A program made the translations under genes and the position numbers. DNA of 25,581 nucleotides, from positions 1 to 25,581 of IMG/VR virus record IMGVR_UViG_3300043409_000911; one strand, written 5' to 3'. This DNA comes from a virus. The notes beneath the pieces were generated by a model. That model was not told where the DNA came from and ran no database searches. It saw only the letters and a list, made by a program, of their open reading frames with translations. Every line of letters starts with the position of its first letter. Position 1 is the stretch's first letter. Of the stretch, positions 9,021-22,714 are shown piece after piece.

Positions 9021-9485
9021 TTAAAATCGTCCTCTGAACCTAGGATGCCTAAGAGGAACGAGCGTTATGTCCAAGGCACCTTCTGGACGAGCCATCACTT
9101 TCATACCCTGCACCCACATCCGTGAATCCTTTACCCTCATCATCTTCTTTACACCTGCTGGTGTAGTCACCTGTAAGATACGTCGGTTAGGGAAGTCAGC
9201 ACGAATGACACTGACCTCTTCTGCGGCGTTAGCCGCCGAAATTTTTTCTTTGGAAGGTTCTTGTTCCTTTTTGATGCCGAGGCACTCATACATTTTTAGT
9301 ACTCCTGTCGGAGTAAGCCAGACAACTCCAAATTTGGTGGGTCTCCCACCCGACTGTTCACGATACCAATGAGATTGGTTCATCTCCTTTTCACGAATTT
9401 TTATAACCAACTTCCTGTCCACGCCAAGAACACGTACCAGTTCAGCCTCTTTTACATCACCTGTATTTATCGTCAGTTCGGACAT
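9021..9485 (-). CDS. Hypothetical protein with winged-helix-like N-terminus
   Basis: The 154-aa product is not recognised as a named family. Residues 12-60 look like a DNA-binding winged helix: KEAELVRVLGVDRKLVIKIRE (helix-turn-helix-like), a linker, then the wing-like GGRPTKFGVVWLTPTG. The C-terminal half (about 95-154) is a small beta domain with FPNRRILQVTTPAGVKKMMRVKDS, ending in a basic RHPRFRGRF tail. It is the first protein gene after tRNA-Met in the packaging/head operon. A role in packaging (small terminase) or late transcription control is possible from position, but another small-terminase candidate exists at 24383-24832. Confidence 0.6.
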   Translation of the reverse strand: MSELTINTGDVKEAELVRVLGVDRKLVIKIREKEMNQSHWYREQSGGRPTKFGVVWLTPTGVLKMYECLGIKKEQEPSKEKISAANAAEEVSVIRADFPNRRILQVTTPAGVKKMMRVKDSRMWVQGMKVMARPEGALDITLVPLRHPRFRGRF

Positions 9486-11736: not shown

Positions 11737-12000
11737 TTAACCAGCAAACTGGTTGACGAAACGCTGGGCGGTGCGGCGGGAATCTGTCCAGCCTTCAAGG
11801 ATGTAAAACTCGGCGGTATCATAAAGCCAAGTCAGGGTGTCGCCAGCCCGTTGGACCTCATTGAGGCAGGAGGCGGGGTGGGACTGGAGGCGGCCCAGCC
11901 AGATGCGGTGGGCTGCTGGTGAGTGTGGACCGAAACCTCGGTCTAGGAGGATGGTCTGAATCTGGTGCTGGAGTTCAGCGATGGTGGTGGGGGTGCTCAT
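11737..12000 (-). CDS. Hypothetical small protein
   Basis: This 87-aa protein (MSTPTTIAELQHQIQTILLD...) is not recognised. It is helical and polar, with two tryptophan-bearing segments (HRIWLGRLQSHP and TLTWLYDTAEFYILEGW). A longer frame opens at 12183, but it would run through the promoter, the TATGACA element and the tandem palindromes, so the ATG at 12000 with leader AAGGTCTACT is chosen. It ends just before the promoter of the zinc/OB-like gene. Confidence 0.65.
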   Translation of the reverse strand: MSTPTTIAELQHQIQTILLDRGFGPHSPAAHRIWLGRLQSHPASCLNEVQRAGDTLTWLYDTAEFYILEGWTDSRRTAQRFVNQFAG

Positions 12001-12010
12001 AGTAGACCTT

Positions 12011-12057
12011 GACTGTGGAAGAATAGTGCCACCTGTCAATCCTACCGTAGTGTCATA
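12011..12057 (-). promoter_or_regulatory. Promoter with TATGACA element, 87-aa gene
   Basis: On the minus strand TATGACA (12057-12051) is followed after 11 bp by TTGACA (12039-12034), then 17 bp and ACAGTC. The downstream block TTCTTCCACAGTC is shared with the promoter at 10525-10553. It is adjacent to the palindrome pair at 12063-12095, which could therefore repress or activate it. Confidence 0.6.
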
Positions 12058-12062
12058 AAGTA

Positions 12063-12095
12063 GTGAACAAATGTTCACCGTGAACGGGTGTTCAC
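12063..12095. promoter_or_regulatory. Tandem palindromic operators
   Basis: Two perfect 16-bp dyads stand one base apart: GTGAACAAATGTTCAC (12063-12078) and GTGAACGGGTGTTCAC (12080-12095). The arms are identical and only the four central bases differ, as expected for dimeric repressor sites. Centre-to-centre distance is 17 bp. They lie between a leftward promoter (12011-12057) and a rightward promoter-like element (12127-12172). No regulator can be assigned. Confidence 0.65.
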
Positions 12096-12126
12096 CTATC
12101 GTAAACTTTCGTGCCAACTCGCTGGT

Positions 12127-12172
12127 TATGACACAGCCCATCTGGGGTTTATGACACAGTGGGCTATTGACA
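12127..12172 (+). promoter_or_regulatory. Rightward TATGACA-type promoter, region A
   Basis: Two TATGACA elements (12127-12133 and 12150-12156) are followed after 10 bp by TTGACA (12167-12172). The sequence CGTGCCAACTC precedes the first element by 6 bp, exactly as at 15973-15996. No canonical -10 is found 17 bp further (CTCACA), although TAATC after the -35 is shared with region B. No annotated protein gene lies downstream on this strand, so it would drive the short element at about 12203-12318. Confidence 0.5.
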
Positions 12173-12202
12173 GGGCTAATCATTAGTAACTCACATTGGT
12201 AT

Positions 12203-12318
12203 TCCCTGCGGAGCCAGTATCTATGCGGGTTTCAGGGCATACACGCACAATTGCCTCAGGACCGCATTGTCATAGGGTGTCAATAGTCTGTATAAGGTCG
12301 AATCAAAGTGCCTCCTGA
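12203..12318 (+). ncRNA. Candidate small RNA or micro-ORF, element A
   Basis: The 18-nt block CCAGTATCTATGCGGGTT (12214-12231) is identical to one at 15851-15868 and stands exactly 41 nt after the TTGACA box in both places. A hairpin follows in both copies (here GGCA 12236-12239 with TGCC 12252-12255). The bounds are an estimate from promoter spacing to the end of the reading frame. The block includes ATG (12223) and opens a 31-codon frame to TGA at 12316-12318, starting MRVSGHTR; the copy in region B starts MRVPRHHR. Differences fall mainly on first and second codon positions, which favours RNA over peptide, but both remain open. Confidence 0.4.
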
Positions 12319-12471
12319 GCCATCCTAGGGGGTATAGCATAGAGATTCTAGAGACTCGCAGGGATTGGTCAGGCGACGCTTTCGGGGTGGGGTTGATACC
12401 AGTACTAAGACCATATGACAAAGCGTTCTAGAGCCATCCTAGATAGCCTAGCGTGGAATTCACACGGGCAC
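12319..12471. other. Non-coding stretch with direct repeat
   Basis: No gene is supported. The 12-mer GAGCCATCCTAG occurs at 12317-12328 and again at 12431-12442. An isolated TATGACA is at 12414-12420 (+), without a -35 box at the usual distance. TGTCATA (12268-12274) and TGTCAA (12278-12283) sit together a little upstream. A 66-codon minus-strand frame covers part of it but has no promoter or family resemblance. Confidence 0.4.
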
Positions 12472-12494
12472 AAAAAAACCCCGCCGAAGCGGGG
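12472..12494 (-). terminator. Rho-independent terminator after endolysin
   Basis: On the minus strand CCCCGC-TTCG-GCGGGG (a very stable 6-bp stem with a TTCG tetraloop) is followed by seven T. It lies 17 bases beyond the endolysin stop codon. Confidence 0.92.
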
Positions 12495-12511
12495 CTGGGT
12501 TGGTCAGTGGC

Positions 12512-12910
12512 TCACTTAAGAGCGGACCGAACCTTGGACCAGTAGCCGATGGTGCCGACTTTTTTCCAGCCACTGGGGCCGCCGTTCCAGATACGGGCAC
12601 GGTCTTCGTCGGTCACCGCACGGCCCAGTCGCTTGGACGTGGCGTAGAGGTCGATGTACTTGCGGCAGATGTCACGGGCCTTGTCAGGGCTGAAGGCATC
12701 GTCGTGCACGTAGCGGGTGCCGTAGGCACGGTTCACGTCGACGATGACCACCTGCCACACCTGTAGGATTCCTTTGGCACGGCCTTGGTCGCCGATGGCG
12801 TTGGCCTTACCGTTGGATTCCACCTGCGTGAGGGCGGCGATGAGCCTGTCGCTGACCTGCCCTTGGACGGGCGAGACTGCGAAGGCGAGAGCGAGGAGTA
12901 GGTATTTCAT
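12512..12910 (-). CDS. Secreted lysozyme/transglycosylase-like endolysin
   Basis: The 132-aa product starts with a signal peptide or signal-anchor, MKYLLLALAFAVSPVQG (residues 1-17). A soluble-lytic-transglycosylase-like domain follows: the probable catalytic glutamate E31 in LTQVESNGKANAIGD, then QGRAKGILQV (42-51, the conserved 'G..Q' part), and near the end ARIWNGGPSGWKK and GYWSKV. This order (E-S, G-x-x-Q, and W/Y-N-G-G) is typical of the family that cleaves peptidoglycan. Export by the host Sec system would release or activate it in the periplasm. Start 12910 is preferred over a 12982 extension because of the signal sequence and the promoter at 12920-12965. A strong terminator follows, so it is its own transcription unit. 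Confidence 0.82.
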   Translation of the reverse strand: MKYLLLALAFAVSPVQGQVSDRLIAALTQVESNGKANAIGDQGRAKGILQVWQVVIVDVNRAYGTRYVHDDAFSPDKARDICRKYIDLYATSKRLGRAVTDEDRARIWNGGPSGWKKVGTIGYWSKVRSALK

Positions 12911-12919
12911 ATCGTGGTT

Positions 12920-12965
12920 GAATGTGGTCAATGGGTGACCAGCGGCAAGGGGCTGGCGTGTCATA
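12920..12965 (-). promoter_or_regulatory. Endolysin promoter with TATGACA in a hairpin
   Basis: On the minus strand TATGACA (12965-12959), 10 bp, TTGCCG (12948-12943), 17 bp, ACATTC. The element lies in the loop side of an inverted repeat: TGGCGT-GTCAT-ACGCCA, flanked by GGGG and CCCC (about 12949-12977). The hairpin follows directly on the stop of the preceding gene, so it may also act as its terminator. Confidence 0.55.
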
Positions 12966-12986
12966 CGCCAACCCCCTAGCACCGCC

Positions 12987-13460
12987 TTAGCCGAAGACCA
13001 CGTCGAGTGCTACGATGTACTGGAGGAGGGCATCGCTGACCACGCCATCGAAGTCGAGGTCGCTTTCCAAGTCGTACTTGGCGGAGTCGTTGCCCTCTTC
13101 GACAAACTCCAACAACTGGAGGAAGCCGACAGCCTTCACACGGAGCCAATCAGGCTGCTTCTTATCCTTGGTGAAGCGGCGGAGGCGGCTCAGTGCCAGT
13201 TTAGGGGTGATGACGGTGTACTTGGTTTCCTTGCCGAGGTCGTCAGGATTGAGACGAAGGCGGAAGGACCAGTCGAGGCGAGGGGCCTTCCCTGATGGCG
13301 TGTCCAAGCCGCTGGTGGCGAAGGATGCGTCGAGGAAGCCGTTCTTGTTGAGCCGCTCATCGGTCTGGAACCACGCTGGGTTCAGGCCAGACTCCAAAGC
13401 GGAGTTGAGGAGCGATGCGATTTCGTTAGTGACCTTGATGTTTTGTAGTAGTTTGTTCAT
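12987..13460 (-). CDS. Hypothetical protein
   Basis: The 157-aa product is not recognised. Residues 1-35 are helical (MNKLLQNIKVTNEIASLLNS), the middle is charged with a beta section (RLDWSFRLRLNPDDLGKETKYTVI), and the C-terminal 60 residues are acidic and helical (FLQLLEFVEEGNDSAKYDLES). The start at 13460 is used because promoter and TATGACA element lie directly upstream; a longer frame to 13628 would run through them. The gene is a monocistronic unit bounded by hairpin/promoter elements at both ends. Confidence 0.65.
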   Translation of the reverse strand: MNKLLQNIKVTNEIASLLNSALESGLNPAWFQTDERLNKNGFLDASFATSGLDTPSGKAPRLDWSFRLRLNPDDLGKETKYTVITPKLALSRLRRFTKDKKQPDWLRVKAVGFLQLLEFVEEGNDSAKYDLESDLDFDGVVSDALLQYIVALDVVFG

Positions 13461-13469
13461 AGGACTTAT

Positions 13470-13515
13470 GAAGGTGTAGAAGTATTGTTCTGCGTCAATG
13501 ACCTGCTTTGTCATA
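13470..13515 (-). promoter_or_regulatory. TATGACA-type promoter of the 157-aa gene
   Basis: On the minus strand TATGACA (13515-13509), exactly 10 bp, TTGACG (13498-13493), 17 bp, ACCTTC. The TATGACA element overlaps the stop codon of the upstream gene 13511-13708, which shows that the site was kept within coding sequence. Confidence 0.6.
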
Positions 13516-13708
13516 CGTCGTCCTCTGGGGCTGGGCTGATGATACCAGCCTTGATGAGAGCGACGGCCTGACGGCCTAGGGAGCCTTGCAACTGCCAGAC
13601 GACTTGGGTGTCGACCAGATACTGCCAAGCCTCCAGCACGTCCTCTTCGCCGCCCTCAGCACGGCCCTCGACCAACTCGACGGCACGGTAGATGGTCAAC
13701 TTGCTCAC
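13511..13708 (-). CDS. Small protein, common phage 'WxLQGxxGRxA' family
   Basis: The 65-aa product has the pattern YRAVELVEGRAEGGEEDVLE then AWQYLVDTQVVWQLQGSLGR and QAVALIKAG. The W.LQG..GR.A..LI..G signature (about residues 38-57) belongs to a small family found in many unrelated phages (I think DUF7417), of unknown function. Translation starts at GTG, which overlaps the preceding TGA by four bases (GTGA, 13705-13708), so it depends on translation of the upstream gene. Confidence 0.75.
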   Translation of the reverse strand: MSKLTIYRAVELVEGRAEGGEEDVLEAWQYLVDTQVVWQLQGSLGRQAVALIKAGIISPAPEDDV

Positions 13709-14169
13709 TTCGCACCTGCCTTTCCGTTGAGGACGATTGCGTTCTCGGTCCAGATGTAAACGATGTCGTCGACGGTGCGTTTGAGAATTTTAACCAGCGT
13801 GGGGCTTTGTGTTGAATCGACGCTATCGTCGTCTCTAATGTCATATTCGTGGTGCCAGATAATTTCTAGCGGTATGCGTTTAGTCGTGGCCTTCAAATAA
13901 GCCTCAAACAATAAACCTTTATACGTTCCAAAATAACCCTTCTGGATTACGTGCACGTGAAACGTTACGTTGTCAGGCGAACGTGTCACCCAGATGGTAT
14001 GCTTGATATTATTTTCTTGGTCATCTAAATCAAAAGATTTAGAAACAGAAAGTCGAATAGGATTTAACAGGTCGTCTGTAACGTCGGCAAAGAATTTTCT
14101 GAGCGGACGGTAGTCTGTCGAGTCTCCAATCAATTCGATTGGCTTGCGTGTGCGGCGTGGGATTTTCAT
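13705..14169 (-). CDS. Hypothetical protein
   Basis: The 154-aa product is not recognised. It begins MKIPRRTRKPIELIGD, has a beta-rich centre (HTIWVTRSPDNVTFHVHVIQ, then GYFGTYKGLLFEAY) and ends in a charged tail GKAGAK. The start at 14169 follows a C/A-rich leader (CCCACTACCACCACA). Base composition in this gene is AT-richer than in the genes on both sides, a sign of a separate origin within the block. It is coupled to the next gene by a GTGA overlap. Confidence 0.65.
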   Translation of the reverse strand: MKIPRRTRKPIELIGDSTDYRPLRKFFADVTDDLLNPIRLSVSKSFDLDDQENNIKHTIWVTRSPDNVTFHVHVIQKGYFGTYKGLLFEAYLKATTKRIPLEIIWHHEYDIRDDDSVDSTQSPTLVKILKRTVDDIVYIWTENAIVLNGKAGAK

Positions 14170-14196
14170 TGTGGTGGTAGTGGGTTGGTAGATATC

Positions 14197-14242
14197 GAAT
14201 CTGGTGATGCGTTGCCCGAAAGCAAGAGAGCGGCGTGTCATA
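14197..14242 (-). promoter_or_regulatory. TATGACA-type promoter in a hairpin
   Basis: On the minus strand TATGACA (14242-14236), exactly 10 bp, TTGCTT (14225-14220), 17 bp, AGATTC. As at the endolysin promoter, the element is in an inverted repeat: CGGCGT-GTCAT-ACGCCG, extended by GAGAG and CTCTC. It lies just after the stop of gene 14259-15110. Confidence 0.55.
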
Positions 14243-14258
14243 CGCCGCCCTCTCAGTT

Positions 14259-15110
14259 TCAGATGATGCGGCCTTCCACTGCGGCTTTCGCACGGTCAAG
14301 CAGGTTGATAGCCTCGTCGTTGCGGCTTCGTTTTTTCAGCGGTGCCAGTGCTTCTGAGATGTCAGCGGCTTGCGTGATGACTGTTGCCCACGCCCTAATT
14401 TCAGAAGGCGTTCCATTGAAGGACGACACTCCGCCGCCAAGATTATGGTCAACGTCAATCGACCAGCCACCAAGCACTGCGTCGCTTGATTTACCTTTGA
14501 CGTGCTCTTGGCGTGAGCCGTAATAGAGTTGTGCACCTCGGAAGAATCCATTCTCGTCGACAGAGAAACGAAGATGTGTTTCCCATTCTACTTCAACGGT
14601 CTTGTTGCCCTGATAGTCTGGTGCATAAACACGCTCGACTGATTTAATTGAACGTAATCCACCTTGCGGCGTGACATTTAACACGAAACACGTCGTGCCA
14701 TAGTGGTTCCCAGATTCTTTCCAGCCACGCTCTTTGCGTACAATTTCATAGCGGGTGGCATAGTCGTCGGTGATGTCGATTAAAGAGCCGACGGTGATGT
14801 TACCAATGCTTGCTGTGATGTTGGAACGTGCTTCGGCGATGCGAGCCGCACCGAACGTTGCCTTGTCCCAAGCCCAGTAGGCTTCTTGGAATGCTTTCTC
14901 AGCAGCGTTGTCTGCGTCGAGTGCTTCGATTTGCTTTTTGGTAGCAGCAGCATCGAGGAGTGCGGATGCTTTAGTCAATCGACCCGTGGGGGTCTTAGCG
15001 GCATTCAACTCGACAAACTTTGCAGTCTTGTTTGCCTGAGTCAGTGCTTCGCTGGTTTCGATGAAGACCTTCGCCAGAGCGGCTAGGTCGGATGGTATTG
15101 TGTGGTTCAT
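14259..15110 (-). CDS. Hypothetical protein, helical N-terminus and beta C-terminus
   Basis: The 283-aa product is not recognised. Residues 1-110 form long alanine-rich helices, probably coiled coil (LAALAKVFIETSEALTQANK and AATKKQIEALDADNAAEKAF). Residues 120-245 are beta-rich, with NITVGSLIDITDDYATRYEI and later SVERVYAPDY. The end is helical and basic (KKRSRNDEAINLLDRAKAAV). No signal peptide or catalytic motif is seen. The start at 15110 is supported by a good promoter (TCTATA at 15131-15136) and leader CTACCCACACTACT. It is one of several independent units of the leftward block. Confidence 0.65.
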   Translation of the reverse strand: MNHTIPSDLAALAKVFIETSEALTQANKTAKFVELNAAKTPTGRLTKASALLDAAATKKQIEALDADNAAEKAFQEAYWAWDKATFGAARIAEARSNITASIGNITVGSLIDITDDYATRYEIVRKERGWKESGNHYGTTCFVLNVTPQGGLRSIKSVERVYAPDYQGNKTVEVEWETHLRFSVDENGFFRGAQLYYGSRQEHVKGKSSDAVLGGWSIDVDHNLGGGVSSFNGTPSEIRAWATVITQAADISEALAPLKKRSRNDEAINLLDRAKAAVEGRII

Positions 15111-15130
15111 AGTAGTGTGGGTAGATTAGG

Positions 15131-15176
15131 TATAGAATAGATATTCTGGTGGATGTCAACAGGGTGCTGTGTCATA
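15131..15176 (-). promoter_or_regulatory. Best TATGACA-type promoter
   Basis: On the minus strand TATGACA (15176-15170), exactly 10 bp, TTGACA (15159-15154), 17 bp, TCTATA (15136-15131), ATG 20 bases later. All three boxes are complete, so this is the best single model of the class. Confidence 0.75.
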
Positions 15177-15177
15177 C

Positions 15178-15501
15178 TCAGGCAGCCCAGTCGAAGGGCT
15201 TTCCGCTCTTCTTCTCGACTGTGTGAGCCAACTGGCGAAGGGCTTGGAGGGTGCGGTAAATCTCACCAGCGGAGACACGTTGCGACGAGCCGAAGTTGAT
15301 AACTCCGCCGCCGACATTGACAACCTGCAACAGGCAGTAGCCGTTGAGGCCCTTCTCTGCGTAGATGTGTCCGATGCGAGCCTCTAACGTGGCTGGCGTT
15401 TTTGTGGTGTCCTTCAGCCAAGCCGTCTGGGGTAGGCCCAAACTTTCGTTGAGCCATTCACAGGCGAGGGTGATATCTTTTGATGTAGTGCGTGATGCCA
15501 T
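15178..15501 (-). CDS. Hypothetical protein
   Basis: The 107-aa product (MASRTTSKDITLACEWLNES...) is not recognised. It has a helical first half, then a GGGVINFGSSQRVSAGEIYR segment at about residues 69-88 and a helical end (TLQALRQLAHTVEKKSG). It resembles small alpha/beta proteins without a known role. A longer frame to 15657 exists, but the ATG at 15501 is preceded by the C/A-rich leader CCCACACACACTACT used by other genes here. It follows the 64-aa gene closely and probably shares its promoter. Confidence 0.6.
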   Translation of the reverse strand: MASRTTSKDITLACEWLNESLGLPQTAWLKDTTKTPATLEARIGHIYAEKGLNGYCLLQVVNVGGGVINFGSSQRVSAGEIYRTLQALRQLAHTVEKKSGKPFDWAA

Positions 15502-15523
15502 AGTAGTGTGTGTGGGTTGGAAA

Positions 15524-15718
15524 TTAAACGGTGGTATTACGTGAGGCTTTATATGCCTCAAATCGCAGGTGCTCAGCCTTCTCACATAGTTCCTTGTGGT
15601 ACCTCTTAAGGGCTTTCTTGTGGACTGCGTGAGCGGCCTGAAGTGCAACCCAAGCACGGTGTGCTTTGGCTTCGGCTTCAGTTGCCAGTGAATCGGCGGT
15701 GTGGTATGAGGTAGTCAT
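15524..15718 (-). CDS. Small helical hypothetical protein
   Basis: The 64-aa product is one long helix by composition (ATEAEAKAHRAWVALQAAHA then VHKKALKRYHKELCEKAEHL), rich in A, K, E and H, coiled-coil-like. Function is unknown. The ATG at 15718 follows CTACCACAACA. It is the first gene of the leftward unit, starting from the divergent promoter region at 15.74-15.81 kb. Confidence 0.6.
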   Translation of the reverse strand: MTTSYHTADSLATEAEAKAHRAWVALQAAHAVHKKALKRYHKELCEKAEHLRFEAYKASRNTTV

Positions 15719-15735
15719 TGTTGTGGTAGGAGAGC

Positions 15736-15780
15736 ATACAATCAGGTATAGAACGATTTGTCAAGTCGTGCTGTGTCATA
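15736..15780 (-). promoter_or_regulatory. TATGACA-type promoter, leftward arm of divergent pair
   Basis: On the minus strand TATGACA (15780-15774), 9 bp, TTGACA (15764-15759), 17 bp, TTGTAT. Together with the rightward element it forms the palindrome TGTCATAatactgTATGACA (15774-15793), so two opposite promoters share one binding region. Confidence 0.65.
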
Positions 15781-15786
15781 ATACTG

Positions 15787-15809
15787 TATGACATAGTAGG
15801 TAGTTGACA
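15787..15809 (+). promoter_or_regulatory. TATGACA-type promoter, rightward arm, region B
   Basis: TATGACA (15787-15793), exactly 10 bp, TTGACA (15804-15809). The -10 is not canonical at 17 bp (CTCAGC), but TAATC occurs shortly after the -35 as in region A. Downstream lies no protein gene for 250 bp, only element B. Confidence 0.5.
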
Positions 15810-15839
15810 GAGTCTAATCTTAGGCACTCAGCCTATGTA

Positions 15840-15928
15840 TGGCTGCAAACCCAGTATCTATGCGGGTTCCAAGGCATCATCGCATAAATGCCTATAGAAG
15901 GCGTTTTCTATACCCAGTCCATAGGTAG
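15840..15928 (+). ncRNA. Candidate small RNA or micro-ORF, element B
   Basis: CCAGTATCTATGCGGGTT (15851-15868) is identical to element A at the same 41-nt distance from TTGACA. Hairpins follow: GGCAT-N10-ATGCC (15873-15892) and TATAGAA-GGCGTT-TTCTATA (15893-15912). Then CTATACC (15908-15914) can pair with GGTATAG (15928-15934). A 22-codon frame starts at ATG 15860 (MRVPRHHRINAYRR...) and ends at TAG 15926-15928. The start of the RNA is estimated from promoter spacing. RNA structure is better conserved than the peptide. Confidence 0.42.
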
Positions 15929-16002
15929 GTATAGGCCAAAAGATACCCCCCTTAGAATGGCACCGCTTTAATCGTGCCAACTCAGGGCATATGACATAGC
16001 AC
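15929..16002. other. Control region before the rightward operon
   Basis: TGGCAC-N10-GTGCCA (15958-15979) is a 6-bp inverted repeat. CGTGCCAACTC (15973-15983) with TATGACA six bases later (15990-15996) repeats the arrangement at 12110-12133. No gene is seen. Confidence 0.5.
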
Positions 16003-16048
16003 TATGACATAGCAGGTACTAGACAGATATGCATATGTGTGCTAGTGT
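16003..16048 (+). promoter_or_regulatory. Main promoter of the rightward operon
   Basis: TATGACA (16003-16009), exactly 10 bp, TAGACA (16020-16025), 17 bp, TAGTGT (16043-16048). The first start codon is at 16057, eight bases after the -10, so the message would be leaderless or nearly so. Confidence 0.6.
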
Positions 16049-16056
16049 GTTTGCCT

Positions 16057-16302
16057 ATGAACCTAAAACTCGTAAATTACTTGCAGCAGGGCAAGCCGCT
16101 CAACGAACGCCAGTCGGCACTGCTCGATGCCAACCCTAAGATTGCTTCTTACTATACGGAGCCAGACGAAGATGGAAAGCAAATGGTCTGTATTGAATTG
16201 GCAGCAGGTTTTAACTATGAAGGCAGAGAATCCTTTATAGCCTACGGATGGCGTGAAGCCGTTCAGCAAATCAAACACATCGCCGAGGACATCGCCGAGT
16301 AA
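16057..16302 (+). CDS. Hypothetical small protein, first gene of rightward operon
   Basis: The 81-aa product (MNLKLVNYLQQGKPLNERQ...) is not recognised. Residues 1-30 are helical, followed by a small beta part (KQMVCIELAAGFNYE) and an acidic helix (AVQQIKHIAEDIAE). The ATG at 16057 is preferred to the one at 16039, which lies between -35 and -10 of the promoter and could not be in the transcript. Being next to the promoter makes it an immediate-early candidate; such products often modify host functions, but there is no direct evidence. Confidence 0.65.
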   Translation: MNLKLVNYLQQGKPLNERQSALLDANPKIASYYTEPDEDGKQMVCIELAAGFNYEGRESFIAYGWREAVQQIKHIAEDIAE

Positions 16303-16324
16303 CCTTAACTTTCCCCCACATACT

Positions 16325-16522
16325 ATGACTACCAAAAATAACATCATCAAGCCTTCCGTCGTGAAGGCTATAGCCAAACAGAATGGTCGCCGAGTCTCGA
16401 AAGAGTTTATCGACCTTCTCAACCAATACGTAATCCGCAAGGTCGTAGAGTGCTCTGAAACCCATAACGGGAAGAAGAAGACGCTCGATGCCGCCGTCGC
16501 AGGTTACAACGGAATCAAATAA
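16325..16522 (+). CDS. Histone-fold-like small DNA-binding protein
   Basis: The 65-aa product reads as one histone-fold domain: helix 1 SVVKAIAKQNG (11-21), the turn RRVS (22-25), the long central helix KEFIDLLNQYVIRKVVECSE (26-45), and a loop with basic residues and T (HNGKKKTLDAAV, 47-58) that starts the last helix. The patterns 'R.S.eF...LN..V...V..C' and 'G.KKT' match the small bacterial/phage histone-like proteins related to DUF1931. Such proteins bind or bridge DNA as dimers. It is an early gene, so a role in organising phage or host DNA is likely. Family assignment is from pattern and needs structure prediction. The leader ACATACT has no Shine-Dalgarno. Confidence 0.65.
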   Translation: MTTKNNIIKPSVVKAIAKQNGRRVSKEFIDLLNQYVIRKVVECSETHNGKKKTLDAAVAGYNGIK

Positions 16523-16532
16523 TAATACGACT

Positions 16533-16877
16533 ATGGAAACCAATAATGACACCAGATACCGCCGTAAAATTAATCAGGCACTAAATGTGCTGCTAGATAC
16601 GGCATTTGCTCTCTCCGACAAACAGGTAACCGTCGCCGCACTTAAACGTGTACAGAAAGAAATTGAGGTTGCGATATACGACTGCCAAAAAGAGATTGCA
16701 CCTCCTACCCCACCACGCACATATGTCATTCAAGTGCCCTCTAAGGGCTATTACGTAAAGGAAACCCAGTCTTGGACTCAGGATATTACAGAGGCTTCCC
16801 GCTACAGTGAGGAGACTTTTGGAAAATATCACGACCACACTGGCTCCGTCGACGCTCGCTGGGTGCTGGTCTCCTGA
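16533..16877 (+). CDS. Hypothetical protein
   Basis: The 114-aa product has a helical, charged N-terminal half (YRRKINQALNVLLDTAFALS) and a beta-rich C-terminal half after a proline linker (APPTPPRTYVIQVPSKGYYV). The second half ends with aromatic residues (FGKYHDHTGSVDARWVLVS) and looks like a small separate domain. It is not recognised. ATG 16533 follows ATACGACT; a frame starting 45 bases earlier would overlap the preceding gene. The TATGACA element for the next promoter begins two bases after its stop codon. Confidence 0.62.
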   Translation: METNNDTRYRRKINQALNVLLDTAFALSDKQVTVAALKRVQKEIEVAIYDCQKEIAPPTPPRTYVIQVPSKGYYVKETQSWTQDITEASRYSEETFGKYHDHTGSVDARWVLVS

Positions 16878-16879
16878 AC

Positions 16880-16925
16880 TATGACACTGCACCCTATTGA
16901 CAAATCCTTCACCCCAACAAATATC
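16880..16925 (+). promoter_or_regulatory. TATGACA-type promoter within the rightward operon
   Basis: TATGACA (16880-16886), exactly 10 bp, TTGACA (16897-16902), 17 bp, AATATC (16920-16925). The ATG that appears at 16881 is part of the regulatory element, so it is not a start codon. Confidence 0.62.
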
Positions 16926-16934
16926 AATAACGCT

Positions 16935-17336
16935 ATGACCAAACCTACCACCATCATCCCCTCATACGAAGCCGTCGCCGACGGTGAGTATCAGGTTCAC
17001 CACTCAGAACTTCCTTTCATTATTTCTAAGGAAGACGGACAAGTTGACGTTCAGTACGTTGCTGTCTTACGAGACAAATACAACGGAGAGATTTCTTTCC
17101 AACGTTACAGCCGACTGCAGACACTTAAAGTGTGCGTCAACCTAACGTACACTGACGTACATCTTGAAAAAACGGTTTCGTACATTTCAAGCGTCGGCTC
17201 AACTGTGTGGTCTGAATCGTTCCCTATAGACCCTGTCACGTTTGAAACTAAGCCGTACTCGCACTTCAAATTAGCGTCCTCGGTAGTATTCAAAGCAGAC
17301 GGTACACCCTCTAACCTTGAGGCTCAAAGCAAATGA
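16935..17336 (+). CDS. Hypothetical protein
   Basis: The 133-aa product (MTKPTTIIPSYEAVADGEYQ...) is not recognised. It is beta-rich throughout with alternating strands (VQYVAVLRDKYNGEISFQRY, then KVCVNLTYTDVHLEKTVSYI), suggesting a small barrel or sandwich. The pattern of an early gene with 'GEY.v..' near the N-terminus is seen in many phage proteins of unknown role. Start 16935 is chosen because the longer version begins in the TATGACA element. Its TGA overlaps the next ATG by four bases (17333-17336). Confidence 0.62.
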   Translation: MTKPTTIIPSYEAVADGEYQVHHSELPFIISKEDGQVDVQYVAVLRDKYNGEISFQRYSRLQTLKVCVNLTYTDVHLEKTVSYISSVGSTVWSESFPIDPVTFETKPYSHFKLASSVVFKADGTPSNLEAQSK

Positions 17337-17596
17337 AAAACAAACTACTGACCGTCAGTCGACTGCCACACTCCTACCTTACCGTGGGAGATGTGAGCGT
17401 GGTGATTGACCGTGACACTACGGGCGGACTGTCCGCCTTCAATGACAAGTTAACCATCGTTATCCAGCAGGACAGCAACTACTACAAGACTGTTATTGAG
17501 TTGAGCAAGAGCAACATCAACGGAGACGTTGAGTTGTCCGACTGGCTCCACGATGTCATCAGGCACTTCACCAATCTTAACTCTGTTAAAAAATGA
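17333..17596 (+). CDS. Hypothetical small protein
   Basis: The 87-aa product is not recognised. It has beta segments (LTVGDVSVVIDRDT, KLTIVIQQDSNYYKTVIELS) then a helix (WLHDVIRHFTNLNSVKK). Both of its ends form ATGA overlaps with neighbours, so it belongs to a coupled set of three genes (16935-17763). Confidence 0.6.
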   Translation: MKNKLLTVSRLPHSYLTVGDVSVVIDRDTTGGLSAFNDKLTIVIQQDSNYYKTVIELSKSNINGDVELSDWLHDVIRHFTNLNSVKK

Positions 17597-17763
17597 AGCC
17601 ACACGACGTGCCAGATATGAAGGAGTACCTGAGGGCTGTACGTACCGCTAAACTGCGTAAGCAGATGCGTCGCAAGGCGACGGTGCGTATCACCTTAGGG
17701 CTTGTTATCATCTGGTTAGCCTTTGTTGGCTTCGTATCCATCATCAACAAAATCATAAACTAA
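17593..17763 (+). CDS. Small membrane protein
   Basis: A 56-aa frame begins at ATG 17593 (overlapping the previous TGA) and ends at TAA 17763. The N-terminal 30 residues are polar and strongly basic (RTAKLRKQMRRKATVR). A single membrane helix spans about 33-50 (TLGLVIIWLAFVGFVSII), ending in NKIIN. The positive-inside rule places the basic N-terminus in the cytoplasm. It may be an early membrane factor, for example for superinfection exclusion, but this is only a guess from size and place. Confidence 0.62.
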   Translation: MKPHDVPDMKEYLRAVRTAKLRKQMRRKATVRITLGLVIIWLAFVGFVSIINKIIN

Positions 17764-17764
17764 A

Positions 17765-18079
17765 ATGGTAAAATATCACACAACACGTTTTGATAATATT
17801 CCGCTTACTGTAAACGGCGTTACGTACAAAGGAAACTTTTTCGCCAAGTACGTATGGACCAATGACAAAATTGGGGTTACTAAATTTTTCGATAAGCCGC
17901 ACTGGGATTGTATCTCTATCATTAACCCAGAGGCCATCGCTCACAACGGAGAAGACATCTACGACGGTTTGTGCAGCGAGCACAGGCAAAGTTTAGATGA
18001 GCAGTGCATCTATGCCGCCGAAGAAAAACAACCTCTTCCTCCCGCAAAAACAAAACGTTCAAACCGTAAGCGGTCTTGA
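17765..18079 (+). CDS. Hypothetical protein with basic tail
   Basis: The 104-aa product is not recognised. Its first 65 residues are beta-rich (FDNIPLTVNGVTYKGNFFAK, then KIGVTKFFDKPHWDCISI), and its last 25 are proline/lysine/arginine-rich (LPPAKTKRSNRKRS), a likely nucleic-acid contact. It starts one base after the previous stop (TAAAATG). Its 3' end contains the -35 box of the next promoter. Confidence 0.6.
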   Translation: MVKYHTTRFDNIPLTVNGVTYKGNFFAKYVWTNDKIGVTKFFDKPHWDCISIINPEAIAHNGEDIYDGLCSEHRQSLDEQCIYAAEEKQPLPPAKTKRSNRKRS

Positions 18080-18103
18080 CACAACCTGCACCACTCTGTT
18101 ACA
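18075..18103 (+). promoter_or_regulatory. Promoter of the exonuclease/replication genes
   Basis: TTGACA (18075-18080), 17 bp, TTACAA (18098-18103), ATG 19 bases later. There is no TATGACA element above the -35, so this promoter should not depend on that factor. Confidence 0.6.
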
Positions 18104-18122
18104 AACCTTTCCCATACATACT

Positions 18123-18914
18123 ATGACCATCCAAAAAATAAATAAAAACCTAGACGAGACCGTATACCGTGCTATTCCTGCACTGTCTGCAACTCAACTG
18201 AAGACCCTTAAGAAGTCCCCGTGGCATCTTAAGTACAACATCGACAACCCATCCAAGCCCACAGAAGAAATGGTGTTCGGCACGGCTGTACACGCTGCTT
18301 GGCTTGAGCCAGCAAAGTTTGCAGACGTATACGTACGCTCACAGAAATTTGACCGCCGTACTACGGCTGGTAAAGTTGCTGCTGCTGAGTTTGCTGCCGC
18401 TAACGAAGGTAAGATTATTATCGACTTCGACGACTGGACAAACCTTGAGTCGATGGTTGCCAACCTGAACGAAGCGTACGGACATCTCCTCCCGTCTTGC
18501 GAGACAGAGTTGTCTATCGTGGTGCCTGACCCTAAGTTTAAGGTAACGCTTAAAGGTCGTCTCGACTTGTACTGCGAAAAGACGAAGACCATCTACGACC
18601 TGAAGACGTGTCAGGATGCGTCGTTCGGTGGGTTCTCCCGTGACGTGTACAAGAATGACTACGCCCTGCAATGTCTGCACTACCTGTTTATTGCTAAGGA
18701 AGCAGGTCTCGACGTGGAGCGTTTTGTGTTTATTCCAACGGAGAAGAAAGCACCCTTCTCTTGTGCTGCCTATCCTATCGTCTTCAACCTGACGTTCCAG
18801 CACTTGTGGCAGGAGCGGCACGAAGAATTGCGTCAGGCTTGGGCTGAAGCAAACGAGCGTGGTGTGTACGTCAAGCCGCACGAACTTGCAGAGCGTAGCA
18901 TCGTCATCAACTAA
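18123..18914 (+). CDS. RecE-like exonuclease (PD-(D/E)XK, exonuclease VIII type)
   Basis: The 263-aa product has the motif order of RecE/exonuclease VIII C-terminal domains. FGTAVHAAWLEP is at 52-63 (H57 and E62), LKGRLDLY at 143-150 (D148), YDLKT at 158-162 (D159 and K161), and DYALQCLHYL at 179-188 (Q183 and Y187). Such enzymes degrade one strand of duplex ends and produce single strands for the annealing protein. The partner here is the Rad52-like protein at 22716-23594, 3.8 kb downstream in the same operon. The ATG at 18123 follows CCATACATACT and a good promoter; a longer frame from 17997 would overlap the preceding gene and is not used. Confidence 0.87.
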   Translation: MTIQKINKNLDETVYRAIPALSATQLKTLKKSPWHLKYNIDNPSKPTEEMVFGTAVHAAWLEPAKFADVYVRSQKFDRRTTAGKVAAAEFAAANEGKIIIDFDDWTNLESMVANLNEAYGHLLPSCETELSIVVPDPKFKVTLKGRLDLYCEKTKTIYDLKTCQDASFGGFSRDVYKNDYALQCLHYLFIAKEAGLDVERFVFIPTEKKAPFSCAAYPIVFNLTFQHLWQERHEELRQAWAEANERGVYVKPHELAERSIVIN

Positions 18915-18924
18915 TTATTATAAA

Positions 18925-19203
18925 ATGAAAACACCATATAACACTATCACGCTTCTGGTTTCTGACGCAAAAGAACTTCCGTTCTTCGATTCAATCCTGC
19001 TAAATTATTTCAGATACTCGGCTACCTGTGCAGACGACAGGGGCCTTGCAACTGGATTAACAAACGTTACCAACAAAGAAATTTGTAATGCGTTTGGAGT
19101 TAGCGAACGTTACGTTTCTCTTTCAATTTCCCGTCTTCGTAAGATTGGAAAAATCGAGTTCGTATCCTACGACGGCAAGGAGCGTATCTTAGGAATAAAA
19201 TAA
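18925..19203 (+). CDS. Winged-helix DNA-binding protein
   Basis: The 92-aa product has a helix-turn-helix in LTNVTNKEICNAFGVSERYV (about 45-64) followed by SLSISRLRKIGKIEFVSYDG, the recognition helix and wing. The first 35 residues are helical (FFDSILLNYFRYSA). This is the DnaD-N or replication-initiator type winged helix that phages use for replication start or for transcription control. It stands directly before a second winged-helix gene, so the two may act together at the origin. The start at 18925 uses TATAAA-ATG; the earlier in-frame ATG lies within the previous gene. Confidence 0.68.
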   Translation: MKTPYNTITLLVSDAKELPFFDSILLNYFRYSATCADDRGLATGLTNVTNKEICNAFGVSERYVSLSISRLRKIGKIEFVSYDGKERILGIK

Positions 19204-19208
19204 TTACT

Positions 19209-19955
19209 ATGACCAAACCTACCACACCACTCGGTTTCACTGGAATATTCATCCCTAGGGACTTATGGCTGAAAGAGGACCTAAGCCCTACTGAGAAATT
19301 GCTTGCAGCAGTCGTAGACGCTCTTGACCAAGGGGATGGGTGCTGGGCATCCAACTCCTACCTCGGAGGGGTTCTGGGGCTGTCTGAGAGGTCCGTAAGG
19401 GACTATCTGGCTAAACTGGAGGCGTTCGGAATCCTGATTCGCAAACAGGACGGCGAGAAACGTCGCATATACTCGGTGTATGCAGATGCGATTCGCAAGG
19501 CAGACATACCAGCAGCACCGTCGAACGAACGTTCAGGGGCGGCAGAAACTCGCCTACCAGAGGCGGCGGAATCCTGCCTAGGGGGGCGGCGGAATCCTGC
19601 CACCAATAATAAACTTAATAAGAAAGATGATATTAAACCCTCACTGGGGTATTTGGTATCTCAAGTTTTATCTAGGTTTGAATTAAGCAAGGAGAGCAAA
19701 GACGTTCTGGAGGCAAACCTCTTGCTGTACACTGACCATCTGAAGACCTTGAACCGTAAGGCATCCATCAATAGCATTAATGCTCAGGTGGAGTTCTTAC
19801 GGGACCAGACTGGTCAATGGTCAAATATGTCTATCGCCGTGGAGATTATCAACCAGACGATACGTCAGGGCTGGACTGGCTTATTCCCGTTAAGCAAAAA
19901 CGCTCAGGCACCTAAGAAAATTCTAACCTCAAAAGACCACGATGGAGCCTTTTAA
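19209..19955 (+). CDS. Replication initiator-like winged-helix protein
   Basis: The 248-aa product starts with a winged helix: LSPTEKLLAAVVDALD (26-41), then ASNSYLGGVLGLSERSVRDY and LAKLEAFGILIRK (about 47-80). This is the common Helix_turn_helix_36-type domain of phage replication proteins. A disordered linker rich in A, E, R and P follows (about 95-140). The C-terminal helical domain ends with the pattern SIAVEIINQTIRQGWTGLFP (about 211-230), which resembles the DnaD-C/lambda O-type segment that contacts the helicase loader. It overlaps the loader gene by 14 bases, which supports their cooperation in loading a replicative helicase. Confidence 0.75.
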   Translation: MTKPTTPLGFTGIFIPRDLWLKEDLSPTEKLLAAVVDALDQGDGCWASNSYLGGVLGLSERSVRDYLAKLEAFGILIRKQDGEKRRIYSVYADAIRKADIPAAPSNERSGAAETRLPEAAESCLGGRRNPATNNKLNKKDDIKPSLGYLVSQVLSRFELSKESKDVLEANLLLYTDHLKTLNRKASINSINAQVEFLRDQTGQWSNMSIAVEIINQTIRQGWTGLFPLSKNAQAPKKILTSKDHDGAF

Positions 19956-20637
19956 AGAATTTAAGGAGAGTGAGGCTTCACTCAACTGTACCTGCGAGCA
20001 ATGCGGAGAGCCGTTTGTTGTGACAGGTGCGGTGCTGGAGTACTTCAAGACGTTCAGGTACTGCACCAGCAAGTGTGCGGATATCGCATACGAAATTGCT
20101 AACCCTAAGCCGAAGACGGAGACGACGCTTAAAAATTATCCTCCGATTTACTGGGACACTGACGTGAAGAGGCTTCCAGAAAAACTGGCTGCGTCGGCTG
20201 TCAACTGGTACCCGAAGGTGGGCAAAGGTCACCTGCTCATCCACGGCTCAAGTCGTGCTGGGAAAACACGCACAGCGTGGGAGGTATGCAAACGACTCCA
20301 CAGGGAAGGGTTTGCTGTGGAGGGTTATACCGTGCGGCAACTTGAAGAAAAGTTGTACGAAGGGATGGGAAGAAATAATCACCACGCAATGTTCAGGCAC
20401 CTTGCTCAGGTTCAGGTTCTATTCATAGACGACTTAGGCAAAGAGCATATGAGTAAAGCGGGTCGACTGGCACCAGACCTTTTTGCATTAATTGACGAGC
20501 GTACGTCGTGGAAGAAGCACACGATTATAACTACGAATCATATGGGCGATGGCCTACGTGAAAGATTTGGTGACGCTGAAATGGGCACAGCATTTGTTGC
20601 TCGTCTACGTGAGTTCTTTGATATCACCTGCCCATAA
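19942..20637 (+). CDS. DnaC-like helicase loader (AAA+ ATPase)
   Basis: The 231-aa product has Walker A GSSRAGKT at 102-109, Walker B VLFIDDLGKE at 159-168, and sensor-1 TTN at 197-199 before a conserved H. A later arginine-rich helix (LRERFGDAEMGTAFVARLRE) may hold the arginine finger. This is the DnaC/DnaI/IstB-like arrangement for a protein that places the ring helicase on DNA. The N-terminus has a probable zinc site (C18, C21, C41, C45), in CEQCGEPF and YCTSKC, which could bind single strands or the initiator. No helicase or polymerase is found in this window. Confidence 0.82.
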   Translation: MEPFKEFKESEASLNCTCEQCGEPFVVTGAVLEYFKTFRYCTSKCADIAYEIANPKPKTETTLKNYPPIYWDTDVKRLPEKLAASAVNWYPKVGKGHLLIHGSSRAGKTRTAWEVCKRLHREGFAVEGYTVRQLEEKLYEGMGRNNHHAMFRHLAQVQVLFIDDLGKEHMSKAGRLAPDLFALIDERTSWKKHTIITTNHMGDGLRERFGDAEMGTAFVARLREFFDITCP

Positions 20638-20641
20638 TTCT

Positions 20642-20953
20642 ATGAACGAACCCGAATACCCAAAAGCAAAATATAACAACTCAATTGCTGGTGCTGCCAT
20701 TTCAATTGGCGTTACTCCTGAGACGCTTGAATTGTTTGTCGCACAAATGCGAGAGTATGACCGTAAAGAAAAACTAGGAGAAAAACCTGACTCTAAACTT
20801 GTGTACTGGTGGGCATATGTTGAAGTATATAACCGTATGCTTGAACTATCAAAAAAAGTAAAATACCTAGAAGAACAAATTGATATTGGTGTTAAGAATT
20901 GTTTTTCCCACTTGCACGACAAAGAAAGAATTAAAGGAGGAGGACAAGAATGA
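20642..20953 (+). CDS. Hypothetical protein, helical
   Basis: The 103-aa product is not recognised. Residues 15-40 look like a short helical DNA-binding-like segment (SIAGAAISIGVTPETLELFV), and residues 60-95 form a coiled coil (YWWAYVEVYNRMLELSKKVK). Its C-terminal codons (KGGGQE) contain AAAGGAGGAGG, a strong Shine-Dalgarno placed right before the next gene start, the only clear one in this operon. Confidence 0.6.
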   Translation: MNEPEYPKAKYNNSIAGAAISIGVTPETLELFVAQMREYDRKEKLGEKPDSKLVYWWAYVEVYNRMLELSKKVKYLEEQIDIGVKNCFSHLHDKERIKGGGQE

Positions 20954-21165
20954 GCGACCCAACCCGATACGAAGTCGAGGGCTGTATGGAGCCGTCAAAA
21001 AAAGGAAATTTTGTGCATTGGTCAGACTACGCAAAACTCAAAGCCGAAAATCAGCGTTTCAGAAAAGCGTTTAAAGACATAGAGGCAGCGTGGTATAAGG
21101 GACGCTCATCATACGTCATTGCAATCGTTGACGACGCACTAGCAAAACAAACCAACACAAAATGA
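20950..21165 (+). CDS. Hypothetical small protein
   Basis: The 71-aa product begins MSDPTRYEVEGCMEPSKKGN then VHWSDYAKLKAENQRFRKAF. Proteins with 'G.fV.WsDY..L..E...fr' are frequent in phage early operons, role unknown. It is preceded by a consensus Shine-Dalgarno (AAGGAGG, about 20934-20940) and overlaps both neighbours by four bases (ATGA at each end). Confidence 0.62.
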   Translation: MSDPTRYEVEGCMEPSKKGNFVHWSDYAKLKAENQRFRKAFKDIEAAWYKGRSSYVIAIVDDALAKQTNTK

Positions 21166-21359
21166 TTTACGAATTTAGAAACCCTATGCCAGTAGAGACA
21201 CCTTTGGGCTATGGTATGCTTCTGTACGTGCGAGACGGGGGAACGTTTAGTAATGATGTGTTTGCCATAGTGCTGGACAAAGACGGAGTCATCAGGCACT
21301 TTACAAGCGAACAATTTTCCTTCGTGCAAAACGATACATTTAGAATCAAATCAAAATGA
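21162..21359 (+). CDS. Hypothetical small protein
   Basis: The 65-aa product is not recognised. It is mainly beta (LGYGMLLYVRDGGTFSNDVF, AIVLDKDGVIRHFTSEQFSF), like a small single-barrel protein. ATGA overlaps couple it to the genes on both sides. Confidence 0.58.
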   Translation: MIYEFRNPMPVETPLGYGMLLYVRDGGTFSNDVFAIVLDKDGVIRHFTSEQFSFVQNDTFRIKSK

Positions 21360-21637
21360 AACGTACTAATTTAAAACGAGGTACTAGGCTTCGCCCTGTT
21401 AGTAAAAAACGCAGGAAGAATTTAGATACCTATTCAAAATTAAGGCAGGACTTTCTGAAGGACAAAAGAGTTTGCTTTGTATGCGTAAGGACAAAGGCCA
21501 CGGACATTCATCATATGAACGGGCGGCACAACGAACGGCTTAACGACACCACCCACTGGTTGCCAGTGTGCAGACCTTGCCACGACTGGATTCATCTTCA
21601 CCCCCAGAAAGCCAGAGACAGCGGCTATTTAATTTGA
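21356..21637 (+). CDS. HNH endonuclease-like protein
   Basis: The 93-aa product has a basic N-terminus (MKRTNLKRGTRLRPVSKKRR) and then a compact HNH zinc domain. C40 and C43 (VCFVC), D50-I-H52-H53-M-N55-G (the catalytic HH.N motif) and C72/C75 with H76 (VCRPCHDWIH) build a zinc-stabilised beta-beta-alpha-metal fold. Single-domain HNH proteins of this size in phage recombination modules may act as nicking or recombination nucleases (NinG-like position) rather than as homing enzymes, since no intron or unique insertion is evident. Its stop overlaps a TTG start of the next gene (TTGA). Confidence 0.75.
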   Translation: MKRTNLKRGTRLRPVSKKRRKNLDTYSKLRQDFLKDKRVCFVCVRTKATDIHHMNGRHNERLNDTTHWLPVCRPCHDWIHLHPQKARDSGYLI

Positions 21638-22086
21638 GCCGCCCTACCTACGAGACTGAAGGTCATTTAGAAAGTGAAAGAAAGGTCATCGAAACTATTG
21701 AGGCGTTGCACGGGGTTAAATTAACGAAGACTCCAAAGTACTATCACATAGATTATTGCATTGTGGATATGCGGAATAAAGTTTGCGGCTGGATTGAAGT
21801 AAGAAATAAAACGTTCAACAGAAATAAATTTACGTCGTTCTATACTTCACTAGAAAAATATTTAAGCGTGGCACGTATGGCACATCTAACTGGTCTTCCA
21901 GCATACATAGCCTGTTCGTGGACTGATGGCATCTTCTTCAAGACCGTGCATCACGGCGACGCTAGGGTGTATCCTATAACCGTAGGAGGACGTACTGTTA
22001 ATTCACGCAACGACCCTGACGACATCGAGCCAGTGATTCATATTCCGATTGAAGATTTCAAACCTATATCAACTATGTTCCAATGA
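21634..22086 (+). CDS. PD-(D/E)XK-like nuclease-fold protein
   Basis: The 150-aa product begins at TTG 21634, chosen because this start overlaps the previous TGA as do its neighbours; the ATG at 21568 would overlap the HNH gene by 70 bases. The core reads YYHIDYCIVDMRNKVCGWIE (about 36-55), continuing V-R-N-K, then FTSFYTSLEKYLSVARMAHL and PAYIACSWTDGIFF. The order D...(G)WIEVRxK...K...A...T.LPA....W.DG is typical of a restriction-endonuclease fold of phage and VRR-NUC type, with D41 and E55 as metal ligands. The usual EVK is EVR here, so activity is uncertain. Confidence 0.62.
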   Translation: MSRPTYETEGHLESERKVIETIEALHGVKLTKTPKYYHIDYCIVDMRNKVCGWIEVRNKTFNRNKFTSFYTSLEKYLSVARMAHLTGLPAYIACSWTDGIFFKTVHHGDARVYPITVGGRTVNSRNDPDDIEPVIHIPIEDFKPISTMFQ

Positions 22087-22337
22087 AAATTCGTACCTAC
22101 GATTGCCCTACACGCTTCTTCGTCACGTCGTCTAAGCCTGACATTGAGAACCTTGTCGACCTGCTTGCACTAAGAGGGAATGGCGAATGCTCCTGCGAAG
22201 ATTTTAAAATGGTAAAATTAATTAATTATAGAAAGAAGGAAGGACCCACACAGTGTAAGCATATAAAGGCTTGCAGGGACCACTTCCTAGACGAGGTCAT
22301 CCACTACATTCGGCAGGATACTGGTATGACAAAGTAG
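22083..22337 (+). CDS. SWIM-type zinc-binding small protein
   Basis: The 84-aa product has CSCEDF at 36-41 and CKHIKACR at 58-65, that is C36-x-C38 ... C58-x-H60, the pattern of a SWIM zinc finger. SWIM domains bind DNA or proteins and in archaea and eukaryotes occur in recombination factors. Here it stands between nuclease-like and annealing-protein genes, which fits a recombination accessory role. The 3' end includes the TATGACA element of the next promoter. Confidence 0.65.
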   Translation: MKIRTYDCPTRFFVTSSKPDIENLVDLLALRGNGECSCEDFKMVKLINYRKKEGPTQCKHIKACRDHFLDEVIHYIRQDTGMTK

Positions 22338-22370
22338 GAGTTGACAAAGGCCACAACACTATGATACATT
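22325..22370 (+). promoter_or_regulatory. TATGACA-type promoter for the Rad52-like gene set
   Basis: TATGACA (22325-22331, inside the end of the SWIM gene), 9 bp, TTGACA (22341-22346), 18 bp, TACATT (22365-22370). The next chosen start is 22391, after the C/A-rich leader CACCTACCAACAACACT. Confidence 0.62.
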
Positions 22371-22390
22371 ATGCACCTACCAACAACACT

Positions 22391-22714
22391 ATGTCGTTAC
22401 CTACCACACCAATCAACGTCGACAAAGCCGTCGACGCTCTCATCAAACCATACCAGCGTAAAGGCCGCACACGTTCCTACCCAAACAGCAATTGGACTAG
22501 GGAAGTTGTCGTCAACGTTTCTATCATCCTCGAAAAATACGAGGACGGTACGCTCCCAGAAGAAGAGCGTGTCATCTACGACTTCTGTAAAAAGATTCGT
22601 CAAAAGTACGGCAAGCGTCGCCACGGAAAGTTTGGTCGCACGTTTTTCCAAGACTGGGTAATCAAAACCCTCAACAAAGAAATCGCCACTCTCTGCACTC
22701 CACCCATAAAATAA
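22391..22714 (+). CDS. Hypothetical basic protein
   Basis: The 107-aa product (MSLPTTPINVDKAVDALIKP...) is not recognised. It is basic, with a helical middle (VVVNVSIILEKYEDGTLPEE) and a basic segment KIRQKYGKRRHGKFGRTFFQ. ATG 22391 is used since the longer frame starts before the promoter. It ends one base before the Rad52-like gene and may work with it. Confidence 0.62.
   Translation: MSLPTTPINVDKAVDALIKPYQRKGRTRSYPNSNWTREVVVNVSIILEKYEDGTLPEEERVIYDFCKKIRQKYGKRRHGKFGRTFFQDWVIKTLNKEIATLCTPPIK

Follow-up and report, generated by a model that had tools for sequence, protein, structure and literature searches.

TATGACA, a putative regulatory box coupled to -35 elements in an uncultivated phage and its relatives

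Occurrence and spacing of TATGACA in the window

The window analyzed here, positions 1-25,581 of the IMG/VR virus record IMGVR_UViG_3300043409_000911, belongs to an uncultivated phage, and its most over-represented 7-mer is TATGACA, the box with which this study is concerned. The terminase, portal, and major head genes are leftward and lie within 1-9 kb of the window, and a second leftward block of small genes, mostly without assigned function, lies at 10-16 kb. The window also contains rightward recombination and replication genes, encoding exonuclease VIII-like, replication initiator O-like, DnaC-like loader, HNH, and Erf proteins. An Rfam search of the window found two tRNAs and nothing else (Table 1).

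Both strands together hold 22 copies of TATGACA, compared with 3.0 +/- 1.7 in dinucleotide shuffles, none of which (0/100) reached 22. The initial annotation had described eleven sites at which the box precedes a TTGACA-type -35 element, and all eleven are present at the coordinates it gave. Eight have exactly 10 bp between box and -35 (N10), as it had counted, with N9 at 15780 and 22325 and N11 at 12057; two sites lie within gene ends, again as described. The shuffle control it had proposed was run on TATGACA-N9..11-TTG and gave 10 occurrences in the window; 300 shuffled sequences contained 0.19 on average and never more than 2. Where TTGAC follows the box within 45 nt, the two are 9, 10, or 11 nt apart in 8 of 10 cases, and the inverted box shows no pile-up at 9-11 from TTGAC in the window. 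The orientation of the box relative to the -35 is identical at all eleven sites. The spacer next to the box is also conserved, with a consensus of about TATGACAcAG[C/T][A/G][G/C][G/C] and roughly 0.6-1.2 bits per position in the site alignment. Because conservation continues into the spacer, extending the box in the window to about TATGACAcAGCAGG, the recognized site is probably longer than seven bases.

The annotation had called this arrangement phage-wide, which overstates its extent: the promoter-linked boxes are confined to 12.0-16.9 kb and 22.3 kb, the structural genes have no boxed promoters, and some promoters elsewhere lack a box. The other 11 of the 22 copies have no adjacent -35 (698, 3324, 7569, 9669/9698, 10570, 12127, 12268, 12414, 13839, and 15990), and those at 698, 3324, and 7569 fall in structural genes. 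Downstream of the boxed sites 12150 and 15787 there is no clear open reading frame (ORF) but a repeated non-coding segment.

Table 1 Boxed sites and other features of the window (HTH, helix-turn-helix)
Feature	Position	Strand	Context
TATGACA 12051-12057, N11, TTGACA 12034-12039	12034..12057	-	gene 11737-12000
TATGACA 12959-12965, N10, TTGCCG 12943-12948	12943..12965	-	gene 12512-12910 (SLT-domain protein)
TATGACA 13509-13515, N10, TTGACG 13493-13498	13493..13515	-	gene 12987-13460; box overlaps end of ORF 13511-13708
TATGACA 14236-14242, N10, TTGCTT 14220-14225	14220..14242	-	gene 13705-14169
TATGACA 15170-15176, N10, TTGACA 15154-15159, TCTATA at N17	15154..15176	-	gene 14259-15110
TATGACA 15774-15780, N9, TTGACA 15759-15764	15759..15780	-	gene 15524-15718
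Two TATGACA 12127-12133, 12150-12156; N10, TTGACA 12167-12172	12127..12172	+	before non-coding segment 12206-12271
TATGACA 15787-15793, N10, TTGACA 15804-15809	15787..15809	+	before non-coding segment 15843-15908
Two TATGACA 15990-15996, 16003-16009; N10, TAGACA 16020-16025	15990..16025	+	gene 16057-16302
TATGACA 16880-16886, N10, TTGACA 16897-16902	16880..16902	+	gene 16935-17336
TATGACA 22325-22331, N9, TTGACA 22341-22346	22325..22346	+	next gene in frame of ORF 22271-22714, ATG probably 22391; box inside end of ORF 22083-22337
Two opposed TATGACA around C-tract	9669-9675 (+), 9698-9704 (-)		place where relatives carry array
HTH plus OB-like-barrel protein, candidate reader	9021..9485	-	adjoins array position
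Small HTH-like protein, candidate reader	18925..19203	+	before replication initiator
tRNA-Met	9536-9611	-	Rfam; adjoins array position
tRNA-Arg (TCT)	23758-23832	+	Rfam

Recurrence of the box in related phages

No near relative of the window phage was found among GenBank phages, where TerL relatives share at most 32% identity over most of the protein. A search with the window TerL returned at least 80 related records. An IMG/VR pattern search with gene 10675-11691 returned zero relatives; homologues of that gene are present in the retrieved relatives. In prokaryote assemblies, the TerL relatives sit almost exclusively in metagenome-assembled genomes (MAGs) of Verrucomicrobiota and close allies (Pedosphaera, Opitutae, Verrucomicrobiales, Opitutia, and Pontiellaceae), with one in Flavobacteriaceae. 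The host of the window phage is therefore probably a member of Verrucomicrobiota, although possible binning errors among the MAG contigs make this a lead rather than proof.

TATGACA likewise ranks first among over-represented 7-mers in the relatives L011 (G023), L013 (G003), L016 (G005), L018 (G022), L019, L021 (G006), and L022. In these records the copies form an array, 6-12 boxes that share one orientation and are irregularly spaced; such arrays are present in seven relatives. The array occupies one conserved place, the non-coding stretch upstream of the homologue of the HTH gene 9021-9485 of the window, a few genes upstream of terL. A C-tract and a conserved, hairpin-containing block accompany it. 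At this position the window has only two opposed boxes, around the same kind of C-tract.

The relative G028 (IMGVR_UViG_3300047095_000699, 43 kb) also carries the array, and outside it has single boxes at 27852-, 29039-, 29990-, 31406-, 32039-, and 35338+. All six follow the pattern TATGACA-N9-TTGACA-N16/17-TC(T/C)A(C/A)T with an extended -10, then an ORF, in the same orientation as in the window; shuffled sequences gave 0. A further single box at 24128- has no -35. In G006 the box occurs once at N11 and twice at N29, and in G022 twice at N29 and once at N30, in both mostly before promoters of the G028 kind. The search of related phages suggested by the initial annotation thus found the box at fixed distances from the -35. 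This strengthens the claimed coupling; the 10-bp spacing is not universal and differs among lineages. An IMG/VR search with box and TTGACA alone gave scattered single matches among the matches listed and was uninformative, as was a triple-box pattern, likewise among the matches listed; with the extended -10 added, G028 alone had more than one site.

Four relatives, G001, G002, G004, and G027, have neither array nor promoter boxes. In the TerL tree they cluster together within the array-bearing phages, pointing to a loss of both array and boxes in this group. The window branches outside all these relatives on a long branch. From this position and the nested loss group, the element is probably old in the clade, with its distance to the -35 re-set in each lineage.

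Several further sequence features were noted. In the locus L277 3813-4264 (record G026), reached by the triple-box pattern only, about 15 TATGACA copies lie on the same strand, often separated by 26 bp. The conserved non-coding block near the array consists of ATTGCCAC...GTCT followed by the hairpin CATCC/GGATG (L013 2220-2300, L018 8065-8110, and L011 7825-7880); it is seemingly kept at about 9820-9875 of the window with a different hairpin (CTATTAC/GTAATAG), and may belong to a cos site, an origin, or an RNA. Besides TATGACA, the window and several relatives (L018, L021, L047, and L014) show an excess of TGGCCTT, GGCCTTG, or related words.

Promoter quality at the boxed sites

At most boxed window sites the -35 is good and the -10 is poor. 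The -35 deviates at 16003 (TAGACA), 12965 (TTGCCG), and 14242 (TTGCTT). None of the boxed sites is among the sigma-70-like matches of a consensus scan that covers ten of the eleven, and at only 4/11 does the -10 score above about the 95th percentile of random positions. The TTGACA-N17 promoter proposed by the initial annotation is therefore supported in its -35 and weak in its -10. The same annotation had argued that an activator compensates for poor -35 elements. This argument does not generalize, because every boxed -35 in G028 is a perfect TTGACA; moreover, two good G028 promoters lack a box, and the weakness in the window lies in the -10. The weak -10 elements are the better argument for activator dependence, which they favor because activator-dependent promoters have such -10s. 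The boxed promoters of G028, the counterparts of the window sites, have clear -10 elements. The common promoter class of the relatives is TTGAC(A/T)-N17-TCYACT with a conserved spacer ending in TG-N, and such promoters are also present in the boxless G002, G004, and G027.

The start codons of boxed window genes lie about 31-50 nt past the -35 (31-33 nt in five), compared with 46-54 nt in G028. If the window sites are promoters, at these short distances several genes would be transcribed with little or no leader.

We also observed a spacer motif, AGTnGAACATCTG, between -35 and -10 in L010, L014, L016, L018, L021, L399, and L405; it contains a partial palindrome (GAACANNTGTTC) and may be an operator or an extended -10. 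The more distant relatives L025 (869-7928) and L031 (759-4802) have about 15 gene-by-gene promoters of the form TTGACACCCCCCTCCCTCC-N-TA(T/A)AAC with very short leaders, and represent another one-promoter-per-gene lineage.

Candidate box-reading proteins

A protein that reads the box is more likely encoded by the phage than by the host. The predicted structure of the 9021-9485 product combines an HTH domain with a small barrel resembling IF1/S1 OB folds (mean predicted local distance difference test score (pLDDT) 80.5, predicted template modeling score (pTM) 0.43; Foldseek E-values weak). It has a weak excisionase match, and its viral-library matches below E 0.001 are to uncharacterized phage proteins only. 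This protein is conserved, and a role as box reader appears mildly disfavored because phages carry it whether or not they have the array, and because the homologue of G003 (array) is closer to that of G002 (no array) than to that of G005 (array). The small HTH-like protein at 18925-19203 and the replication initiator are further candidates.

Interpretation and comparison with known systems

TATGACA is a real, conserved regulatory element whose closest functional parallel is with activator-dependent phage promoters. A regulator very likely binds it, as the box precedes promoter-like sites in the window and recurs in relatives both before promoters and as an array. We consider it somewhat more probable than not (about 0.55), judging from sequence comparison, that TATGACA is the asymmetric site recognized by a DNA-binding protein specific for this sequence, which activates the promoters of non-structural phage genes and also binds the array. 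The box, its coupling to the -35 in a single orientation, its recurrence in relatives at lineage-specific spacings, and the array are observed; binding by a protein, activation, and which protein acts are inferred. With a normal -35/-10 layout, the protein would be bound just upstream of the -35, with the box centre at about -49 (N10), -48 (N9), or -68 (N29). There it would most likely touch RNA polymerase and turn on the non-structural genes, each with its own promoter. At the arrays of the relatives, with 6-12 boxes ahead of the terminase genes, the same protein may meet a regulatory sink or switch, or have a second job in packaging or replication. More tentatively, and with lower confidence, the box may be a clade-specific control element of Verrucomicrobiota phages, in which one protein reads both the array by the terminase genes and the single boxes upstream of the -35s, coupling early expression to packaging or replication, with the distance re-set per lineage.

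Several findings weigh against activation through the box. No protein family confined to box-bearing phages was found and no binding protein was identified. G003, G005, and G023 have the array and no boxed promoters in the sequence stretches examined. The poor -10 elements make promoter function at the boxed window sites itself a matter of inference. Finally, good promoters without a box occur in the window (10553 and 11727) and in G028 (two), so the box marks only a subset of promoters.

Activator-dependent phage promoters are known from P2 Ogr and P4 Delta, Mu Mor and C, T4 MotA, and lambda CII, in each of which several promoters are served by a phage activator whose site has a set position, at the -35 or upstream of it. 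Their sites are dyads, or replace or flank the -35, and Ogr, which binds near -55, is the closest in position to TATGACA. Unlike these sites, TATGACA is an asymmetric 7-mer before a mostly intact TTGACA. Neither the P2 Ogr/Delta dyad TTGT-N12-ACAA near -55 nor the lambda CII TTGC repeats flanking the -35 appear in the window site alignment, and no activator of the Ogr/Delta, Mor/C, MotA, or CII type was recognized among the window proteins searched. There is thus a likeness to activator promoters, yet the defining features of any testable known activator system are absent. A literature search for TATGACA in promoters returned nothing relevant.

Mycobacteriophages offer further comparisons. The stoperators and operators of Cluster A are short asymmetric sites in many copies, mostly in one orientation to transcription, lineage-specific, and read by one protein, the cognate phage repressor; most lie outside promoters and stop elongation (PMC6550527, PMC9283540). 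TATGACA is likewise short, asymmetric, abundant, lineage-specific, and in one orientation to transcription, with co-oriented array copies. It differs in that its main set is locked to the -35 (11/22 window copies and all six G028 copies facing an ORF). The start-associated sequence (SAS) and extended SAS (ESAS) of Cluster K are short asymmetric elements before many non-structural genes in one orientation, features that TATGACA shares. No function is assigned to them there, and they look translational, lying 3-7 bp before the start codon (PMC3203893), whereas TATGACA lies upstream of the -35, well over 40 bp before the start codon. The 17-bp dyad repeat of Cluster O, with more than 30 perfect copies per genome, no function assigned there, and leaderless promoters nearby (PMC4351075), resembles TATGACA in its many perfect copies; unlike TATGACA it is palindromic and not tied to a -35.

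Alternative explanations

It is rather unlikely, in our view, that a phage immunity or timing repressor binds the box and silences the genes, with non-promoter boxes serving as roadblocks. The site is asymmetric, dispersed, in one orientation at promoters, and present outside them, as stoperators are (PMC6550527); however, the box does not overlie the promoter but sits upstream of the -35, centred at about -49 (-68 in relatives). Together with the single orientation and the few fixed distances tolerated, the position near -49 fits an activator better than a blocking repressor. No repressor family was matched among about 24 proteins scanned from this partial window, and no repressor or integrase gene was recognized among this subset of its ORFs. 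Comparably doubtful is that the array serves packaging (as a cos/pac-like site) or replication and that its protein was co-opted at promoters, a reading that can coexist with activation. An HTH gene two genes before terL has the array, the C-tract, and the conserved hairpin block upstream of it, an arrangement like that of TerS sites near cos, and the neighboring HTH protein is conserved, but packaging does not explain the strict box-to--35 register in the window and G028, and four relatives manage without the array.

That the boxes were spread by recent duplication of a promoter cassette, with no selection on the box itself, is very improbable. Local repeats do exist, as 12109-12271 and 15843-16000 are duplicated and a 50-bp family of 62-70% identity occurs at 12920, 13470, and 14197. 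Beyond them the flanks have no significant alignment, spacers and flanks vary among window and G028 sites around an invariant 7-mer, and two distant phages hold different fixed distances; this explanation was rejected. We give almost no credence to a start-codon context (ATG ACA) with translational spacing, also rejected, by a frame test: the ATG of the box is in frame with the gene at four window sites, but the frame is wrong or a stop intervenes at the remaining window sites with a gene and at 5/6 G028 sites, and arrays lack genes. A host motif was rejected as well, as TATGACA-N9..10-TTGAC is absent or single in six MAGs with a TerL relative, although these MAGs may not be those of the host.

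To our knowledge, very little is known about gene control in phages of Verrucomicrobiota. The box could serve as DNA bait for pulling out the protein, and the conserved proteins of these phages supply a few candidates. The perfect 7-mer persists while flanking non-coding DNA and spacing diverge, and it is missing from both places in the same phages, which makes it a directly testable target. If the same protein serves array and promoters, it would link gene control directly to packaging or replication.

Non-coding repeats and palindromes near the boxed sites

The non-coding segment at 12206-12271 and 15843-15908 (+; 74% identical) starts about 30 nt past the boxed TTGACA (12172 and 15809) and is possibly a small RNA. 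Compared with shuffles, the second copy folds better (z -2.7) and the first does not. The segment has no convincing match in the relatives, and an exact 16-mer from it gave 35 IMG/VR matches, about chance by estimate. Between the divergent boxed sites 12057- and 12150+, the tandem palindromes GTGAACAAATGTTCAC and GTGAACGGGTGTTCAC lie at 12062-12097 and may be LexA-like or repressor operators. One such palindrome (GTGAACGTATGTTCAC) is found in L011 just before the HTH gene, beside a box.

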